DNA of 17,842 bases, taken from NCBI GenBank assembly GCA_016926695.1, contig JAFGOB010000114.1, positions 1-17,842 of the forward strand. The letters are read 5' to 3'. How positions within the stretch are numbered: position 1 is the stretch's first letter; each line of letters begins with the position of its first letter. The notes under the pieces were generated by a model that saw nothing but the letters and a program-made list of their open reading frames with translations, was not told where the DNA came from and searched no databases. The position numbers were made by a program, and so were the translations under genes. Source of the stretch: Dehalococcoidales bacterium (lineage in GTDB: Bacteria; Chloroflexota; Dehalococcoidia; Dehalococcoidales; UBA3254). Below are positions 3,270 to 10,704 of the stretch, one piece after another.

Positions 3270-4409
3270 TTGAAGAGTGTAAAATGCAAGGCTGCGGTAT
3301 TGTATGAATACGGAAAACCCCTGGTAATAGAAGAGGTAACACTGAACCCCGCAGAACCGGGAAAGGGCGAGGTAAAGATCCGGGTGGCTGCCACCAGCAT
3401 CTGTCACAGTGACGTACATTCCTTCAGGGGAGAGCACGGCCACCCCAAACTGCCCGCAGTGGGCGGACATGAGGTTACCGGTTACGTGGAGGAAGTTGGA
3501 GAAGGCGTTACATATGATGTTAAACCCGGCGACAGGGTTATTCTCGCTCTGGGAGCTATCGGCTGCGGACAGTGCTACTACTGCGTAAGGGGATTCCCCT
3601 ATATGTGCGAAAAAGGTAGACCGCCCCGTCCCAGGACAGGCGGATTCCAGGGAATCAGTGCGGTCGGACGCTATTTGAACAAGGACGGAGAACGCCTGAC
3701 TCAATTCGGCGGCCAAACGGCAGGATTCGTGGAACAGGTTATTGTGCATGAAGACAGATTGGTAAAAATTCCGGACAACATGCCCTTCGACAAGGCTGCC
3801 CCCCTGGCCTGCGGCGTCATGACAGGCTACGGTGCGGTGGTAAATCTGGCGCAAGTCAAACCGCGCAGCAGCGTATGTGTGGTGGGTACAGGCGGCGTGG
3901 GACTCAGCGCTATCCAGGGGGCGCGTCTGTCAGGAGCATACCCCATCATCGCCGTGGACATACTGGACAATAAGCTTGAGATGGCCAGGCGCTTCGGAGC
4001 TACCCACACAGTCAATTCCAAAATGGAAAAAGACCCTATCAACGCAGTCTGGCAAATAGCCGGCGGCAGGGGGGCCGACTACGTTTTCGTCTGCGTAGGA
4101 GGTATGGACGTCCTGCGCCAGGCCTTCATAATGTCGGGGCCCGGTTCATGGACGGTCATTATCGGGCATCACGGCAATGATACGCTTTCAGCCTTCGAAC
4201 CGACCGATTTATTCGGCAGAATTCTAACTGGCGGTGGAGGAAATGCCCGCATTAGGTATGATATTCCCGACCTTATCGAATACTATATGACCGGTCAGCT
4301 TAAACTGGATGAGTACATTACCGGGCATTATCCCCTGGAGAAAATAAACGAAGCCATCGAGGATATGCTAAGCGGACAGGGGCTGCGCCCTGTGATTATG
4401 TTCGAATAG
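3270..4409 (+). CDS. Zinc-dependent alcohol dehydrogenase (medium-chain dehydrogenase/reductase)
   Basis: NAD-linked oxidation of an alcohol or reduction of a carbonyl; the substrate cannot be read. The 379-residue product has catalytic-zinc ligands C45, H67-E68 (GGHE) and C181 (LACGVMTGYG). The structural zinc lobe has C99, C102, C105 and C113. The Rossmann motif GTGGVG lies at 206-211, and D230 at the end of the next strand suggests NAD rather than NADP. The start is a TTG at 3270-3272, chosen because a full AAGGAGGT (3257-3264) lies five bases upstream and the family's N-terminal strand follows at once. It is the first gene of the operon, 46 bases before the selenoprotein, so the two probably act on linked intermediates. 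Confidence 0.93.
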   Translation: MKSVKCKAAVLYEYGKPLVIEEVTLNPAEPGKGEVKIRVAATSICHSDVHSFRGEHGHPKLPAVGGHEVTGYVEEVGEGVTYDVKPGDRVILALGAIGCGQCYYCVRGFPYMCEKGRPPRPRTGGFQGISAVGRYLNKDGERLTQFGGQTAGFVEQVIVHEDRLVKIPDNMPFDKAAPLACGVMTGYGAVVNLAQVKPRSSVCVVGTGGVGLSAIQGARLSGAYPIIAVDILDNKLEMARRFGATHTVNSKMEKDPINAVWQIAGGRGADYVFVCVGGMDVLRQAFIMSGPGSWTVIIGHHGNDTLSAFEPTDLFGRILTGGGGNARIRYDIPDLIEYYMTGQLKLDEYITGHYPLEKINEAIEDMLSGQGLRPVIMFE

Positions 4410-4455
4410 CCGTTGAATATCAGTTCTCGTAAACATTTTGTGAGGAGTAGAAAAA

Positions 4456-6084
4456 ATGGAAAAGGTTAGCGTTCTGGACCCGCGGGGGCAGGCCCCGCTC
4501 TTGAGGCGAACACCTATGACCGAACGCCTGGATTCTCTCGATGATAAAACAGTATATATTGTACATGTTAACTGGCCTCATACCTTCCAGTTTACCGATG
4601 AATTACATAAGGTCTTATCAGGGAAATTCCCTAAAACCACATTCATCCTCAAAAGGAAACTGGGGCCTTACGCCCAGGACGATCCTAAACTATGGGCTGA
4701 AATCCAGGAAAAGGGCAACGCAGCAATCGTCTCGGTAGGACATTGAAGCACATGCGCGCCTGCGGTCGTCAGGCATAGCATGTCAATTGAAAAGAGGGGA
4801 ATTCCCACTGTAGGAGTGGTGACACAGGTTTTCGAGCCGCTGGCAAGACTATATTCCAAAATGGTGGGACGGCCGGAATTTCCGGTTGTCTTTGTTCCTC
4901 AACCTGTTAAACTGGTACCCGCGGAAAGATGCCGTCAGTATGCTGAGGGAAATGATCCCGTAACAGGTAGACCGGTAATCGACGAACTCGTCGAAGGGCT
5001 GACCAGGCCATTGACTTCCGGACAAAAAAAGTCCGGGTTTGAAGAAAGGCCCTCACCCAGGCTGCTGGAACCTGATACCGAAGAAAACCTGCATCGCTAT
5101 TTCCTTGAAAACAAAATGACTGACTTCCTGCCGATTTACCTGCCTACCGAGGAAAAGGTGGAAGCCATGTTAAAAGGGACCAGTCATGAACCTGATGAGG
5201 TTGTAGGTGAAATTCGCTCCGGATATGAGGCCATGAGTTTCACCGTAGAGAAGGTGGCCGCCAACGCGGTTATGGCCGGGGCCAGGCCTGAATACCTGCC
5301 GGTTATCCTGGCTATGGCTGCATCGGGTGTGGCCTGTATCGCCAGTTCCACGGGCTCCTTTACCAGCACTATCGTGATCAACGGACCTATCAGAAACGAG
5401 ATCAAGATGAATTCCGGGCTCGGCGCCATGGGGCCTTTTAACCAGGCCAATGCCGTGCTGGGCAGGGCCGGAACGCTCCTCTCTATAAGCGCCGGAGGCG
5501 GGCAGCCGGGCAGTACTTACTGGGGATACCAGGGCAATCCTCTCGATTATAACCACTGCACCTTCGCGGAAAACGAGGAACTGCTGCCCGCGGGATGGAA
5601 ACCCTTCCATGTTCAAAACGGCTTCGATCCCGGAGAAAGCGTAGTCAGCTTTATGCGGGCTTTCCACTACTGGGGCTGGAGCCATACCAACGAAAACGAA
5701 AAGCACAAGGCTATTCTTCAAATGGCCACATTCCTGTCTCCCTCAAGCTCGTATTGCCTGCTGCTCGATCCGATTGTAGCCGAGGAACTGGTCGGAGAAG
5801 GCTTCCCCACCAAGGAGTCAGTCAGCCAGTATGTCTATGACAACTCTTGGTTGACCTACAGTGATTACTGGAAATATGACGGCCCGGAGAACAACCGGCA
5901 GGATGCCGAGAGAGGAATTGAGCCCTGGGCTACCCTCCTGAAGCAGCCGCCTGGAGATTTGCTCCACCGCTTCGATACCCCGGCCGCTATCAGCCTGCTG
6001 GTTGTCGGCGGAAGGTCCAATGATTTCTGGAAAGCCGGCGATTGGGCCCATATCGGTAGTTATTCAATTGATGAATGGCGTTAG
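4456..6084 (+). CDS. UGSC-family selenoprotein with in-frame UGA (Sec97)
   Basis: One 542-residue gene interrupted only by TGA at 4744-4746, read here as selenocysteine. Upstream of it the frame ends in AIVSVGH; downstream it continues U-S-T-C-APAVVRHSMSIEKRGIPTV, which is the core of the UGSC domain, a redox-type family named for Sec-Gly-Ser-Cys. Sec97 and C100 form a U-x-x-C pair. The UGSC domain spans about residues 1-180. A longer C-terminal part (about 230-542), with the signature NAVMAGARPEYLPVILAMA, has unknown function. GAGGAG (4442-4447) lies eight bases before the ATG. A bacterial SECIS hairpin follows the UGA directly. The internal ATG at 4780 has no ribosome-binding site, so a separate downstream gene is unlikely. 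No signal peptide or membrane helix is seen, so it is probably cytoplasmic. The reaction is unknown; a selenolate-dependent redox or C-S/C-Se chemistry is inference. Confidence 0.92.
4747..4783 (+). promoter_or_regulatory. Bacterial SECIS element (selenocysteine insertion)
   Basis: Immediately after the UGA at 4744-4746 the mRNA can form a two-part hairpin. The lower stem ACATGC (4750-4755) pairs with GCATGT (4778-4783), all six pairs Watson-Crick. The upper stem GCCTG (4758-4762) pairs with CAGGC (4770-4774). The apical loop CGGTCGT carries the GGUC that SelB recognises in E. coli fdhF. The loop begins 17 bases after the UGA, within the normal range. This is strong independent support for recoding. 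Confidence 0.9.
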
Positions 6085-6096
6085 GAGGAAAAGGAC

Positions 6097-6633
6097 ATGA
6101 GTGACAGGGACGCTGCTGCAGGTCCGGTAACGGGAAAATCCCCCGGAGACGCCTATCCCGTGGGCTCCGTCGTTAAAATCCCGATCATTCCCGGATACGG
6201 TCCGGGACCGAAGATCGGCGATCTCCTGATTACGCTGTTAGAGGTTTTGCGGGGAAAAGAAATAGAGAACCGGCTCCCGCCGGGTGAAATACCGCCCGCA
6301 CCTGAAAAAGACGATATGGAGAACGTCGTATTCAGTCTGAAAGTGGAATATGCACGCTATGGGAGAAGTCCCAGGGAACAACCCTACATGCTGTCCGACG
6401 GGCAGTTCCTGGCCTGTTCATCGGATGGGGATACGGAATATCAGGTCATTCCTCTTTCCGATGAGAGCCGGGGAGGCCTGATCGGATACCTTTTTAAAGC
6501 GGGTGATTCCCGGCAGAACCGGCTCTATTGCCGGCTGCCTGTGGAGGAAAAAAAGCCTTACCTGCTTTACAGGCGTGAAAACGTGGAGAACGTCTGGGGA
6601 CTGTGGTCGGATATCTGGTTTAAGCTTTATTAG
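6097..6633 (+). CDS. DUF4352-like small protein, first of a tandem pair
   Basis: A 178-residue protein of unknown function. Its C-terminal two thirds resemble the DUF4352 (telokin-like beta-sandwich) pattern: a SDGQFLA strand, a GLIGYLFKAGD turn, then strands ending in an aromatic tail VWGLWSDIWFKLY. It is clearly paralogous to the next gene, sharing the N-terminal SPGxAxPVGSxVK-type motif and the aromatic tail. Unlike most DUF4352 proteins it has no signal peptide or lipobox, so it should be cytoplasmic. AGGAGG (6083-6088) overlaps the selenoprotein stop codon and is eight bases before the ATG, so the two are cotranscribed and probably translationally coupled. A binding or scaffold role for the selenoprotein is only a guess. 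Confidence 0.85.
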   Translation: MSDRDAAAGPVTGKSPGDAYPVGSVVKIPIIPGYGPGPKIGDLLITLLEVLRGKEIENRLPPGEIPPAPEKDDMENVVFSLKVEYARYGRSPREQPYMLSDGQFLACSSDGDTEYQVIPLSDESRGGLIGYLFKAGDSRQNRLYCRLPVEEKKPYLLYRRENVENVWGLWSDIWFKLY

Positions 6634-6682
6634 CCAGTTACCGTCATACTGCTTGTGCCGGGCGTGGATGAAGAAATTTTTA

Positions 6683-6700
6683 AGCAGAAAAAAATCTGCT
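6683..6700 (+). other. Intra-operon hairpin
   Basis: AGCAGA (6683-6688) and TCTGCT (6695-6700) form a perfect six-pair stem around a loop of six A bases, ending 11 bases before the AAGGAG of the next gene. No U-tract follows, so it is not a terminator. It could stabilise or mark processing of the mRNA between the two paralogous genes. Confidence 0.45.
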
Positions 6701-6725
6701 CTGGTCGATACAAGGAGAACAGATT

Positions 6726-7334
6726 ATGAAAGGTCCTGAAGAACCTAACAGGGCAGGAAGGATGGCGGGTGCTTCCCCGGGAGGGGCTGCACCTGTCGGA
6801 ACCGCTGTTAAGACCACGGTTGAACGCGGTCATGCCTATATGGTGCCCAGGCTTTACAACGTGGAAATTACGCTGAAAGAGATTGTCAGGGGTGAAGAAG
6901 CCCGTTTGCGTGCTGAAAAGCTGGCTATCGGTCCACCTGAAAAGGGCTTCGAGTACCTTCTGGCCTTTATCAAATTCGGCTATTTTGAACGCGGCAGGAT
7001 TGCGCCTCAGGTCTTATCCGATACGGGGACAAAGCAGTATGTATCATTCGGAGGAGGCAGTGTCGACATCACCTATACTCTTTCCGAAGGACAATTCTTA
7101 GCCGTATCGGCAGATGGCGAAACGGAGTATCCCGTCCCGTCTGTGACTCAGCAGCCGGAACCCGGCTTAATTGGCCGCGAGTTTCACCCGGGAGAAGCAT
7201 ACGAGGGCTGGATTCTCTTCCAGGTGCCGGAAGATGAAGATAAACCGCTGCTTATTTTCAAGCGAGAACATGTAGAAGGCGTCTACGGCATCTGGAGCTA
7301 TATCTGGTTCCGGCTTTACAGGGATACGGCTTAG
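6726..7334 (+). CDS. DUF4352-like small protein, second of a tandem pair
   Basis: A 202-residue paralogue of the preceding gene. It keeps the motif SPGGAAPVGTAVKT near the N-terminus, then LYNVEITLKEIVRGEEA, TLSEGQFLAVSADGETEY, and the segment GREFHPGEAYEGWILFQVP, which closely follows the DUF4352 consensus (a G-x-x-F-x-P-G-E turn, then G-W-x-x-F-x-V-P). It ends with the aromatic tail VYGIWSYIWFRLY. It is longer than its neighbour by an insertion around residues 95-115. There is no signal peptide or cysteine pair. AAGGAG (6712-6717) lies eight bases before the ATG, and the 92-base gap to the first copy holds a small hairpin. The function is unknown. Two divergent copies suggest a heteromer or two binding partners. 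Confidence 0.87.
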   Translation: MKGPEEPNRAGRMAGASPGGAAPVGTAVKTTVERGHAYMVPRLYNVEITLKEIVRGEEARLRAEKLAIGPPEKGFEYLLAFIKFGYFERGRIAPQVLSDTGTKQYVSFGGGSVDITYTLSEGQFLAVSADGETEYPVPSVTQQPEPGLIGREFHPGEAYEGWILFQVPEDEDKPLLIFKREHVEGVYGIWSYIWFRLYRDTA

Positions 7335-7346
7335 CATTGAAATGAA

Positions 7347-8768
7347 ATGACGGCATCCAAAGAACGGACATATTATTGCGCGATACAGACAGCGATTTCG
7401 GCTCTTAATACCAGGAATAGCCTGGAAGATGTGCTGGACAAAATAGTTTACGCCATCTCGGAGGCTATGAAGGCTGGAGTATCCTTGGTCCTGCTGGATT
7501 CCAGCAGGAAAAAGCTGGCCCACACCACCTCTCACGGACTGCCTCATGCCTACCTGCATAAGGGCCTGCTGGATGCTGAAAAAAGCCTGGGGGAAATGCT
7601 CCAGGGAAAAGTGGTGGCGATAAAGGATACCAAAAAAGACGGCCGGGTCCAGTATCCCGCACTTGCCGGGGAAGCCGGGATAGCAGCTATGCTGGGGGTC
7701 CCCCTCACCGTTGAAAACAAAATAGTGGGGGGAATCCGGGTATATATGAAGAGCCCCCGCAGGTTTCCAAAGGCGGATATTGAATTCGTGACCGCCATGA
7801 CCAGACTTATCGAGATAGCCGCCGGTAACCGGACCTTCCTTCCGGCTAAAACTGCGGACCGGCCGGATATGACCGGGATTGAACCGCAGCGCACTCTGCT
7901 TCAGCAGGTCCAGAAAGTAGTTTTTGCCCATCCCAGCGAAAAGGAGTTTGCTCGCTGGCTGGACTTCTATAACCTGGAATGGATCTATGAACCCCGCTCA
8001 TTTCCCCTGACATGGCAGGATAAAAAGGTTACTGAAATGTTTACCCCCGATTTCTACCTGCCCGGCCTTGATCTTTATGTCGAGTTGACTACCATGAAGC
8101 AGAGCCTGGTAACAGGGAAAAACCGCAAGCTGCGGCGACTGAAAGAGCTCTACCCTGACATCAAGATCACCCTCCTGTACAAGAAGGACTATGAGCGTCT
8201 GCTGGGTAAATACGGCCTGGGGCCTCTTTCTGAAACTCGCAGCCGGAGCATTGAAAGGGTCCTGTTTTCCGCGGTTGAAATACAGGAGAAGGTCCATGAG
8301 TTGGCCGGGCAGCTTTCCCGGGACTATGCCGGTTGTCATCCCGTCATGGTAGGGGTACTGCGCGGCGTTTTTTGTTTCATCTCGGACCTGGTCCGCGCTA
8401 TGACTATTCCCCTGGACGTAGATTTTATGGCTATCTCCTATTTTAGCGACGCGGACAACTCGGCAGTGAAAATTACCAGGGATATTGACTTCAACGTAAC
8501 CGGACGGCATGTCATCATGGTTGAAGATATTGTGGATACCGGAATGACCTTGAGCTACATCCTCAAGCATTTGAAAATGAGGGACCCGGCCAGTTTATCG
8601 GTATGTACTTTGCTGGACAAGCGGGTACGGCGCATCGCCGATATTACAATCGAATACACAGGTTTTGAAGTACCGGATGAATTCCTAGTTGGCTATGGTC
8701 TTGATTATAAAGAAGAATACCGCAATCTGCCTTATATCGGCATCCTGACACCGGGAAAAGAGGTATAA
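7347..8768 (+). CDS. GAF / nuclease-like / hypoxanthine phosphoribosyltransferase fusion
   Basis: Three domains in 473 residues. Residues about 10-160 are a GAF sensor (GIAAMLGVPLTVENKIVGGI). Residues about 190-290 resemble a Vsr/PD-(D/E)XK-type nuclease fold (FARWLDFYNLEWIYEP, then FTPDFYLPGLDLYVELTTMK with D235 and E246), but the ExK lysine is replaced (E-L-T), so cleavage is doubtful. Residues about 300-473 are a purine phosphoribosyltransferase: loop GVLRG (336-340), PRPP motif VIMVEDIVDTGMTL (389-402, acidic pair E393-D394), and the hpt-type end VGYGLDYKEEYRNLPYIGIL. I recall nuclease-like-hpt fusions elsewhere; the added GAF is less familiar. It begins 12 bases after the preceding stop with only a weak ribosome-binding site, suggesting coupling. 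It could salvage purines or act as a nucleotide-responsive regulator. Confidence 0.88.
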   Translation: MTASKERTYYCAIQTAISALNTRNSLEDVLDKIVYAISEAMKAGVSLVLLDSSRKKLAHTTSHGLPHAYLHKGLLDAEKSLGEMLQGKVVAIKDTKKDGRVQYPALAGEAGIAAMLGVPLTVENKIVGGIRVYMKSPRRFPKADIEFVTAMTRLIEIAAGNRTFLPAKTADRPDMTGIEPQRTLLQQVQKVVFAHPSEKEFARWLDFYNLEWIYEPRSFPLTWQDKKVTEMFTPDFYLPGLDLYVELTTMKQSLVTGKNRKLRRLKELYPDIKITLLYKKDYERLLGKYGLGPLSETRSRSIERVLFSAVEIQEKVHELAGQLSRDYAGCHPVMVGVLRGVFCFISDLVRAMTIPLDVDFMAISYFSDADNSAVKITRDIDFNVTGRHVIMVEDIVDTGMTLSYILKHLKMRDPASLSVCTLLDKRVRRIADITIEYTGFEVPDEFLVGYGLDYKEEYRNLPYIGILTPGKEV

Positions 8769-8776
8769 AAGCAGGT

Positions 8777-8796
8777 AAAAAAATCCTCCCAAGTAA
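8777..8796 (-). terminator. Rho-independent terminator of the small RNA
   Basis: The 3' arm (8784-8796) of the 13-pair end-closing stem is followed directly by seven U (8777-8783) on the minus strand. Unusually, the 5' arm is the very start of the transcript, about 95 bases away, so the stem would close the whole RNA. Confidence 0.65.
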
Positions 8797-8904
8797 CCTT
8801 TGCTTTAGGCATTCCTTTCGGTTCTGTTTCTTCCTTTCAGCTTTCGTCTGATCGGTTTTTACTTTACCTATCCTTTCGCCTTTTGCTCCAATTACTTGGA
8901 AGGA
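8777..8904 (-). ncRNA. Probable free-standing structured small RNA
   Basis: On the minus strand a transcript of about 125 bases would start near 8904. Its first 13 bases (8892-8904) pair along their whole length with 8784-8796, using 12 Watson-Crick pairs and one G-U pair, and a run of seven U follows. The G-U pair exists only in the minus-strand RNA; on the plus strand that position is a C-A mismatch, which fixes the direction. Inside, GC and GGC pair with GCC and GC around matching A-rich internal loops. Three GAAAGGA-type motifs lie in the centre. A consensus promoter is correctly placed upstream. I do not recognise the family. It lies convergent to the operon end. The rest of this gap (8939-9155) holds only a CCCGGCCGGG palindrome (9078-9087). 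Confidence 0.7.
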
Positions 8905-8909
8905 CTTCT

Positions 8910-8938
8910 ATATTAACAAACACCCGGTATCCTGTCAA
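8910..8938 (-). promoter_or_regulatory. Consensus promoter of the small RNA
   Basis: On the minus strand a perfect TTGACA (8933-8938) and TAATAT (8910-8915) are separated by exactly 17 bases. The expected start point, six to seven bases past the -10 box, is 8903-8904, which is the first paired base of the RNA. No open reading frame with a ribosome-binding site follows, so it serves a non-coding transcript. Confidence 0.75.
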
Positions 8939-9155
8939 AGTCGCTGGTGGTTAACCCGGAACAAATATAACCATCTTTAACGTTATACCTATACGTATTA
9001 TTCACAAAATCTTGCAGTTATTAAACAATAGGATGTTTTTGTAGATTACTAAATGCGTTTAAGAAAACCATTCCTGTCCCGGCCGGGAAAATATTACAAT
9101 TAATTAGTGGGTATAAAGAGTCAATTACATCCTGACCTTTAATCTCAAATACATC

Positions 9156-10346
9156 TCAAATAACCTTGTTGTAATGAAGCCGTCCCAGCCGTTCTTCATT
9201 CAACCCCAGCAATTGGCCGAAAACATATTGGTTGTCCTGTCCGCCTTCAGGAGACGGACAGCGACAGGCAAACGGAATATCCGCCAAACGGACAGGATTG
9301 GCATCGGTGATCGTTTCTCCCAGTACCGGATGCTGAAGTTCATGAAAAAAACCGCGCTCACGTAATTGAGGGTCACCTGCCAGATCCAGAGCGCTTTGCA
9401 CCACACCCGCTGGGACTCCCTCTCTCTGTAAAACGGACATTACCTCTCCGGCGGAATGCCGGCTCGTCCATTCCATAATAAGGTTATCCAGCATGTATGA
9501 ATTCTCTTTCCTGCCCTTTGCCGTTTCAAAACGCCGGTCATCCGCCCAGAGCGGATTTTTCAGCGCACGTTTAAATCCCTGCCATTCCGTTTCGCCTGTG
9601 ACCGAAACGGCACACCACTTATCAACGCCCAGACAGGCATATATTCCCTCGGGTGCAAACAGTGTCGATTCAATCCCCTTTCTATTCCCGAAAAGAGTAT
9701 AGTCCACAATTGTTTCGCATAACAGACTGATCATGGCTTCTGTTTCAGAAAGGTCGATATCTTGTCCCTGTCCCGTCCTGCTGCGATACTCCAGGGCGGC
9801 CAGCACAGCCACGGCACCGTAAAGTCCGGCGATATGATCGGCATAAGAATAACCTATTCCCGCGGGCGGACGGTCAGGATAGGAGGTAAGGCCTGTCATC
9901 CCGCACAAGGCCTGTACGGTGGGGCCGAAACCGCTGTAATGCAGCCAGGGGCCGCTATGCCCCATTATCGATAGGCTGAGATATATGATATCCGGACGTA
10001 TCTTTTTTGCTTCGGAATAATCAAGCCCCCAGTTTGACATTACCCTCGGGCTAAAATTTTCCACGATAACATCACTTTTTTTAATGAGGTCCCCGGCAAT
10101 TTTCTTGCCGTCCGGTTTGCTGGGATCAAGGGTAACGCCCAGCTTGCTGCGGTTCCAGTTATTGAAATACCCCCGGGAAAACCGGTCCCCGGCGCCGGGT
10201 GAAAGCGGCTGTACCTTGATCACCTCCGCTCCAAAATCGGCCAGAAAACGGGTAGCATACGGTCCGGCCAGTACCCAGCTAAAATCCAGAATCCGGATAT
10301 CTTCCAGTACCTGGCGGGAATGACTTTCGGCTGTTTTCTCAGCCAT
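9156..10346 (-). CDS. Class III CoA-transferase (CaiB/BaiF/Frc family)
   Basis: Moves CoA between carboxylic acids through an aspartyl-CoA anhydride. The N-terminus LEDIRILDFSWVLAGPYATRFLADFGAEVIKV is shown by its parts: LDFSWVLAGPYA and FGAEVIKV are the family's CoA-binding strand and loop. The catalytic Asp is in YSYADHIAGLYGA (D170 counted from the ATG), close to Asp169 of formyl-CoA transferase. The 396-residue length is normal. I choose the ATG at 10344-10346; a TTG four codons upstream is possible. Either start overlaps the response-regulator gene (8 or 20 bases), so the two are translationally coupled. Its position behind a two-component pair suggests that acid activation is made on demand. 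The acid and CoA donor are unknown. Confidence 0.93.
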   Translation of the reverse strand: MAEKTAESHSRQVLEDIRILDFSWVLAGPYATRFLADFGAEVIKVQPLSPGAGDRFSRGYFNNWNRSKLGVTLDPSKPDGKKIAGDLIKKSDVIVENFSPRVMSNWGLDYSEAKKIRPDIIYLSLSIMGHSGPWLHYSGFGPTVQALCGMTGLTSYPDRPPAGIGYSYADHIAGLYGAVAVLAALEYRSRTGQGQDIDLSETEAMISLLCETIVDYTLFGNRKGIESTLFAPEGIYACLGVDKWCAVSVTGETEWQGFKRALKNPLWADDRRFETAKGRKENSYMLDNLIMEWTSRHSAGEVMSVLQREGVPAGVVQSALDLAGDPQLRERGFFHELQHPVLGETITDANPVRLADIPFACRCPSPEGGQDNQYVFGQLLGLNEERLGRLHYNKVI

Positions 10347-10704
10347 TGTTTTTCCCAAGCTTGTTCAGTCGGTCAAGTAATAGCCTGTAATCGAATGGTT
10401 TGGTGATATAATCGTTAGCACCCAGGGACAAAGCCTTGGAGATCATTTCTGGACTATGTCTGGCGCTGACCACAACTATGGGAACAGATGAGAAAGCCCT
10501 TATCTGTTCGATAACTTCGATTCCATCTATATCCGGAAGTCCAAGGTCGATTATCACTCCGTCATAGGCATCATTCTGAAGCATTCTGATTGCCTCCAGT
10601 CCTTTGCTGGTGGAGGCCATAACGGATTCTGGATCATTTACTTCCAGGCAAAGATTTATCGATTCAACCGTCGCCAGATCATCCTCAATAAGAAGTAATT
10701 TCAT
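10339..10704 (-). CDS. Single-domain response regulator (CheY-like receiver)
   Basis: Receiver domain only, 121 residues, with no output domain. The acidic pocket is E7-D8-D9, the phospho-acceptor D53 (IIDLGLPD), the switch residue S80 (VVSA) and the conserved K102 (TKPF). AAGGAGA sits about eight bases before the ATG. It lies 90 bases downstream of the histidine kinase and overlaps the CoA-transferase gene, so all three are probably one operon. With no DNA-binding or enzymatic part, it must pass its signal by protein contact or by a further phosphorelay step. Partner choice (the adjacent kinase) is inferred from position. Confidence 0.94.
   Translation of the reverse strand: MKLLLIEDDLATVESINLCLEVNDPESVMASTSKGLEAIRMLQNDAYDGVIIDLGLPDIDGIEVIEQIRAFSSVPIVVVSARHSPEMISKALSLGANDYITKPFDYRLLLDRLNKLGKNNG

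Follow-up and report, generated by a model that had tools for sequence, protein, structure and literature searches.

The DNA analysed here is a 17,842-nucleotide stretch from a Dehalococcoidales bacterium (contig JAFGOB010000114.1, assembly GCA_016926695.1), hereafter referred to as the window. Two consecutive open reading frames in it, called separately at 4456-4746 (96 aa) and 4780-6084 (434 aa), very probably form one gene for a 542-residue selenoprotein with selenocysteine (Sec) inserted at residue 97, a reading to which we assign a probability of roughly 93%. An ATG at 4456, with GAGGAG just 5' of it, and a TAG at 6082-6084 lie in the same frame, and the TGA at 4744-4746 is the sole stop between them, as a preliminary description of this DNA had stated. 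Comparative analysis supports this gene model through the conservation of the UGA, an RNA-level constraint on a predicted hairpin beside it and the coherence of the product as a single two-domain protein. Throughout, L, G and P denote loci, genomes and proteins, and A4 designates a 26-sequence alignment of UGSC domains.

With Cys substituted for Sec, the Pfam UGSC family PF24696 matches the joined translation without a break over residues 6-164, spanning the TGA, at 91.9 bits (gathering cut-off 25); the separate halves score 25.6 and 40.7 bits. The continuity of UGSC residues across the TGA asserted in the preliminary description is thereby borne out, as is the assignment to the UGSC family, with the correction that the motif reads U-S-T-C and not U-G-S-C. 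The U/C-x-x-C motif is present as U97-S-T-C100, and in A4, which was built without Leu, Met or Thr forms, column 97 is always U or C and column 100 always C. The coincidence of the TGA with the family's Sec/Cys column, together with its conservation at that position, is more than chance.

Automatic gene calling agrees with a different model, in which a 96-aa protein ends at the TGA and an independent 434-aa protein starts at ATG 4780. The database entry for the window (P0002) is this 434-aa C-terminal piece, and the ATG, 33 bases past the TGA, has AGG six bases ahead of it. The preliminary description had the second segment lacking a ribosome-binding site, which is accurate only to the extent that this AGG is the best purine stretch available; the starts at 6097 and 6726 are preceded by AGGAGG and AGGAG, respectively. 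The putative start is, however, not conserved, with 16 start positions among 93 listed short proteins and no ATG at that place in L001, L002 and L011. Moreover, 11 codons separate the TGA from the ATG, among them that of Cys100, invariant in A4, and the STC-class stretch STCAP encoded there is conserved in loci from several phyla; all 27 listed full-length homologues are one continuous protein, and a constraint on third codon bases (see below) starts and stops with the hairpin. Relatives with separate genes do exist (L029, L033, L034 and L037), but they are split between residues 183 and 215, at the domain boundary and not at residue 97, and their UGSC genes also carry the TGA. We consider two separate genes in the window to be very improbable.

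Scanning a single genome for each species identified 10 loci, with titles naming Acidobacteria/Acidobacteriota, Deltaproteobacteria, Syntrophobacter, Rokuibacteriota and Dehalococcoidia. In every one of the 10 the TGA falls at the same column, and no other stop occurs in any whole-protein match. Further loci came from draws around G002 (36 of 395 genomes matched at E 1e-20), G005 (Rokuibacteriota; 68 of 95 at E 1e-30) and G009 (Dehalococcoidia; 33 of 400 at E 1e-30), together with three plasmid loci; all represent best matches per search and not a random sample. After counting identical 96-base sequences once and dropping matches that stop short of residue 97 or are cut by the locus end, residue 97 is covered in 88 distinct places from several phyla, and TGA occupies that column in 80 of them. 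The remaining eight comprise four in which the alignment puts the TGA a few residues off (L026, L029, L033, L107), two with TGC (Cys; L111, L112) and two with ACC (Thr; the second copy in L041, and L102).

Two further explanations were considered. Since Cys homologues are known at residue 97, the TGA could be a Cys codon altered by pseudogenization or sequencing error, but its recurrence at the same column throughout the genome loci, each without another stop, and in nearly all distinct places leaves this account scarcely credible. A genome-wide alternative code, with TGA read as an ordinary amino acid, has nothing in its favor except the open frame. TGA ends 4 of the 12 other listed window genes, none of which contains an internal stop, and hence it is not reassigned within the window; we give this explanation equally little credence.

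Homologues in the protein collection follow a pattern compatible with one gene cut at its Sec codon. Among the 120 listed of the 5933 proteins that passed, 27 are full-length (560-611 aa) and 93, including the window's own P0002, are short (372-443 aa). The short proteins begin at positions from residue 106 to residue 174, and none of them reaches residue 97. Many relatives thus look as though they were cut in the same way as the window protein, in line with the mis-annotation proposed earlier; the pattern is the one that truncation at a Sec codon yields, some cases perhaps being contig-end cuts. Three of the short proteins (P0009, P0010 and P0044, from Thermodesulfobacteriota) are named 'UGSC family (seleno)protein'. 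Relatives P0003-P0005 show 83-88% identity, and P0111 is an example of a Cys form. Residues 97-100 of the 27 listed full-length homologues read CSTC in 13, LDTC in 11, LDTN in two and MDTL in one, and some relatives, by these residues, do without Sec. The in-frame UGA is kept or Cys-replaced in homologues, the exception being the Leu/Met clade. A midpoint-rooted FastTree phylogeny of 97 forms (67 U, 15 C, 13 L, 1 M and 1 T) places Sec at the root with six parsimony changes, and groups the Leu/Met forms in one clade nested inside the Sec forms.

Several loci carry unusual arrangements of UGSC genes. L114 contains three consecutive UGSC-domain genes without TGA (5011-6765, ~6862-8658 and 8683-10425), the first with Leu for Sec and the next two, by eye, with Ser and Ala at the Sec and Cys positions. 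These are apparently non-catalytic paralogues, and the same genome also has Sec forms. In L003, two adjoining TGA-containing fusion genes (4066-5781 and 6001-7638) belong to different classes, the first with a signal peptide identified by eye. L113 contains, from 3959 onward, a TGA-containing UGSC gene on the IncP conjugative plasmid p2-T1 of Acidovorax sp. T1; its record gives annotation just for the portion ahead of the TGA (3965-4255), the frame later enters unrelated sequence, and an IS91-like transposase gene lies at 1-683.

The region directly 3' of the TGA is predicted to fold into a bacterial selenocysteine insertion sequence (bSECIS) hairpin. Its start four bases past the TGA, its GGUC loop and its two stems (lower, 4750-4755/4778-4783; upper, 4758-4763/4768-4774) match the preliminary description, which had also called the hairpin perfect; on this last point it was mistaken, as U4769 is bulged out of the upper stem and the stems are separated by an internal loop of 2 + 3 bases. 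No Rfam family passes in a scan of the hairpin region. PMC13188914 gives bSECIS limits of a 3-9 nt loop, an upper stem of 4-16 bp, a distance of 16-37 nt from the UGA, a G within the first two loop positions and an energy of -7.5 kcal/mol or lower. The predicted hairpin of the window falls within these limits, with a 4-nt loop, 6 bp with one bulge, a UGA-to-loop distance of 17 nt and a whole-hairpin energy of -15.9 kcal/mol, versus -5.2 kcal/mol for the Cys homologue L111.

Evidence for constraint on the RNA comes from third codon bases in 51 distinct STC-class Sec genes, that of the window among them, whose matches exceed 480 residues; 26 of these genes lie outside the phylum of G005. In these 26 genes, 176 codons are four-fold degenerate in 80% or more of the sequences, and their commonest third base has a mean share of 0.51. 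A share of at least 0.9 is reached only at codons 101-105 (0.92, 0.96, 0.92, 0.92 and 1.0), corresponding to nt 13-27 from the T of the TGA and thus to most of the upper stem and loop. With all 51 genes, the same five codons of 206 reach 0.9; the sequences are related, which makes this no independent-sample test, and the background codons share that relatedness. Among 29 distinct 40-base sequences, the closing pair 20-25 is kept in all 29, pairs 17-28 and 18-27 in 28 and pair 19-26 in 24, with outer pairs 15-29, 14-30 and 13-31 kept in 22, 21 and 25, respectively. In L043 and L047 the loop is AGUU and the stem is intact. For the GSC class (23 sequences), paired cells amount to 79.7% versus 68.9% in shuffles and cells changed on both sides to 12 versus 4.6 (neither value equaled in 500 shuffles), and the covariation score is reached in 2 of 500 shuffles.

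The Sec insertion machinery was analyzed in 15 related genomes with the TGA fusion (G001-G010, G043, G058, G170, G209 and G218). SelB is above cut-off in 14 (10/10 of G001-G010 and 4/5 of the others), SelA in 13 (8/10 and 5/5) and tRNA-Sec above its gathering score in 14 (9/10 and 5/5). Among 14 well-known control genomes, SelB exceeds the cut-off in two, SelA in one and tRNA-Sec in five. In the larger draws, searched for SelB at E 1e-70 in genomes of unstated completeness, genomes with STC-class TGA fusions have SelB in 24 of 29 cases (G005 draw) and 14 of 15 (G009 draw), on lists matched by eye.

A number of observations weigh against this gene encoding a UGSC selenoprotein. At the protein level, the window protein misses the cut-off of the NCBIfam UGSC_fam model NF041046 (66 bits versus 125; the G-S-C class relative L017 scores 143.5), and 14 of the 27 listed full-length homologues have Leu or Met at the Sec position. 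The fold energy of the hairpin is marginal, with 29 of 200 shuffles equally good over 50 nt (z -1.17) and 10 of 200 over 39 nt (z -1.98), and that of L010 is not unusual (z 0.27). The window alone of the 29 sequences breaks pairs 17-28 and 18-27, its register differing from that of its relatives, and its bulge lies on the 3' side, versus the 5' side in most relatives. In the GSC class, neither the count of pairs with both partners changed (246/500) nor that of pair types (495/500) rises above shuffles, and sliding the pairing register as a control still yields 12 double changes at +2 and 10 at +3, with paired cells dropping to 20-52%. The tRNA-Sec cut-off is not strict, as the controls indicate; the hits in the related genomes nevertheless reach 68-78 bits, with the threshold at 47. 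At the threshold used, no SelB was found in the TGA-fusion genomes G451, G456, G458, G477, G488 and G824, in G461, G478 and G839, which carry a TGA form of another class, or in G043, one of the five closest genomes, where SelA and tRNA-Sec are present. Finally, SelB presence is weak support because SelB is common in both whole draws (83/95 for G005 and 307/400 for G009).

The interpretation as a UGSC selenoprotein advanced in the preliminary description is supported by comparison with relatives. In the mechanism we propose, SelB and Sec-tRNA would bind the hairpin directly 3' of the UGA at 4744-4746, selenocysteine would be inserted at residue 97 and translation would proceed to the TAG at 6082. 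Under selenium shortage, the UGA would instead be read as a stop, yielding a 96-residue fragment.

An AlphaFold2 model of the joined chain, computed with Cys for Sec, has a mean predicted local distance difference test (pLDDT) score of 91.2 and a predicted template modeling (pTM) score of 0.88. Strands and helices alternate in the UGSC domain, placing Sec just after the strand at 89-95. The C-terminal domain, modeled at a pLDDT of 84.9, matches nothing in Pfam or NCBIfam at E 10, and no clear structural match to it was found. In the four split relatives (L029, L033, L034 and L037), this domain is a stand-alone gene adjoining the UGSC gene, lying first in L029, L033 and L037 and second in L034. 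Because the domains are neighboring genes, in either order, in some relatives, this arrangement points to their being a functional pair.

Profile-profile comparison of 26 UGSC domains with five GrdB (selenoprotein B) sequences yields a probability of 95.3 (E 2.2e-8) over 93 columns, with Sec aligned on Sec. The five GrdB proteins derive from genomes with UGSC fusions, TIGR01918 passing in 5 of 20 genomes. On this alignment, the UGSC domain and GrdB are probable distant homologues. Weak, below-cut-off matches around Sec to GrdB, GrdF, GrdH or PrdB models are also seen in L017, L020 and L024 (E 0.0012-0.069). In the same genomes as UGSC fusions, L129, L132, L133 and L135 carry TGA-containing genes with a U-P-x-C motif and below-cut-off similarity to selenoprotein B; L131 has Cys at the Sec position of such a gene.

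In glycine and D-proline reductase, the substrate that Sec attacks is bound through a pyruvoyl group. In the chemistry we propose here, Sec97, with Cys100, would be the catalytic center of the UGSC domain, which would be Rossmann-like and a distant relative of the Sec domain in selenoprotein B. The selenolate would attack a substrate, probably an imported organic compound, held between the UGSC and C-terminal domains; Cys100 would then resolve the selenium adduct, and a thioredoxin-type system would restore the enzyme. A GrdB-type pyruvoyl partner within this chain is unlikely, because the C-terminal domain has no invariant Cys able to become a pyruvoyl group. Other results count against GrdB-like chemistry as such. 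One of the four other UGSC proteins scanned, L003, has no GrdB-type match, and L020 also matches an unrelated macrolide phosphotransferase model (E 0.0033). The TIGR01918 cut-off of 65.45 bits is missed, the best relative (L024) scoring 13.6 bits (E 0.025) and P0001 being unlisted at E 0.001, and none of the homologues is of known function. A Cys at Sec+3 occurs in only one of the five aligned GrdB sequences, which lowers our estimate both of this chemistry and of the broader proposal that follows from it.

We therefore put forward GrdB-like reductive chemistry for the UGSC fusion only tentatively. The broader proposal strikes us as doubtful: that the glycine/D-proline reductase class of selenoenzymes has in the UGSC fusions another, widespread branch of single-chain reductases, whose GrdB-like Sec domain pairs with a new partner domain in place of the pyruvoyl subunit and which cleave compounds brought in by the transporters of adjacent genes, their Sec-less paralogues (Leu, Met, Thr or Ser) being non-catalytic or differently working partners. 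A competing view accepts Sec insertion and sees in the protein a thioredoxin-type thiol/disulfide oxidoreductase. It draws on PMC2398784, which gives a likely thioredoxin-like fold for the UGSC protein and tabulates its UxxC motif, as found in many thioredoxin-like and peroxiredoxin-like families. We find this view unlikely, though not negligible.

The predicted features of the locus are listed below, with the neighboring genes.

Features of the selenoprotein locus and adjoining genes (window positions)
Feature	Position	Strand	Remarks
UGSC-domain fusion selenoprotein gene (predicted)	4456..6084	+	542 residues, Sec97; single in-frame TGA
N-terminal UGSC domain	4456..5025	+	~residues 1-190, from PF24696, model secondary structure and GrdB profile match
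Sec codon UGA (predicted)	4744..4746	+	residue 97, motif U-S-T-C (Cys100)
Predicted bacterial SECIS hairpin	4750..4783	+	upper stem-loop 4758-4774, apical loop GGUC 4764-4767
C-terminal domain	5053..6081	+	residues 200-542, ~340 residues; model pLDDT 84.9
Zinc-binding alcohol dehydrogenase family protein	3270..4409	+	directly 5' of Sec gene
Small protein, 178 aa	6097..6633	+	first of two paralogues directly 3' of Sec gene
Small protein, 202 aa	6726..7334	+	paralogue of 6097-6633; DUF4352 similarity under cut-off

The alcohol dehydrogenase gene possibly belongs to the same operon as the Sec gene, and related dehydrogenases occur in L005, L010 and L045. Relatives of both small proteins lie 3' of the Sec gene in L041, L042 and L045, with more distant relatives of the second in L043 and L047. 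L042 combines a GntR/FCD regulator with a Sec fusion of the GSC class, after which comes a thioredoxin-reductase-like gene, and with a tripartite ATP-independent periplasmic (TRAP)-type substrate-binding gene and an STC-class Sec fusion. L041 likewise has a GntR/FCD regulator and Sec fusions of both the GSC and the STC class, along with a Thr form whose signal peptide was identified by eye and a substrate-binding gene of the peptide type. In L004, a thioredoxin-reductase-like gene starts 96 bases past the Sec fusion. The two reductase-like proteins (L042 and L004) score 291 and 324 bits, under the NCBIfam cut-off of 343. Together these neighborhoods suggest the regulated uptake and reduction of a compound. 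Elsewhere in the window, positions 154-668 on the minus strand encode a YoeB toxin and a Phd/YefM antitoxin (PF06769, PF02604), and a single open reading frame at 7347-8768 combines a GAF domain and a hypoxanthine phosphoribosyltransferase domain, its middle segment being without a match.

Because gene callers cut at the Sec codon, the protein collection holds active-site-less pieces of a large selenoprotein, and with corrected gene models the family could be studied as one enzyme. The predicted hairpin can be compared with the SECIS of Escherichia coli fdhF, which has a GGUC loop and a 5'-side bulge: GGUC lies at nt 22-25 from the UGA in fdhF and at nt 21-24 in the window, whose bulge is on the 3' side, unlike that of fdhF and of most relatives. 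With respect to the described UGSC family (PF24696, NF041046), the window protein differs in its U-S-T-C motif and in its score under the NF041046 cut-off. UGSC fusion selenoproteins are nonetheless a kind already described from ocean samples, to which the window gene adds a member: a UGSC-containing fusion (UGSC/Unknown_1) was reported in 2008 from the Global Ocean Sampling survey (PMC2398784), and is alike in having Sec within UxxC and in joining a UGSC domain to another conserved domain. Less expected is the alignment of the UGSC domain with GrdB, hinting at a reductive selenoenzyme. No match of the window's family to the GrdB/PrdB models (TIGR01918, TIGR04483) exceeds their curated cut-offs, yet the families share, beyond the superposition of Sec on Sec, a G-[ST] after Sec and then a helix and the pattern E-x-x-G-[IL]-P-x-V. 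Should the relationship to selenoprotein B hold, it would become directly testable whether selenolate attack reductively cleaves an imported compound.
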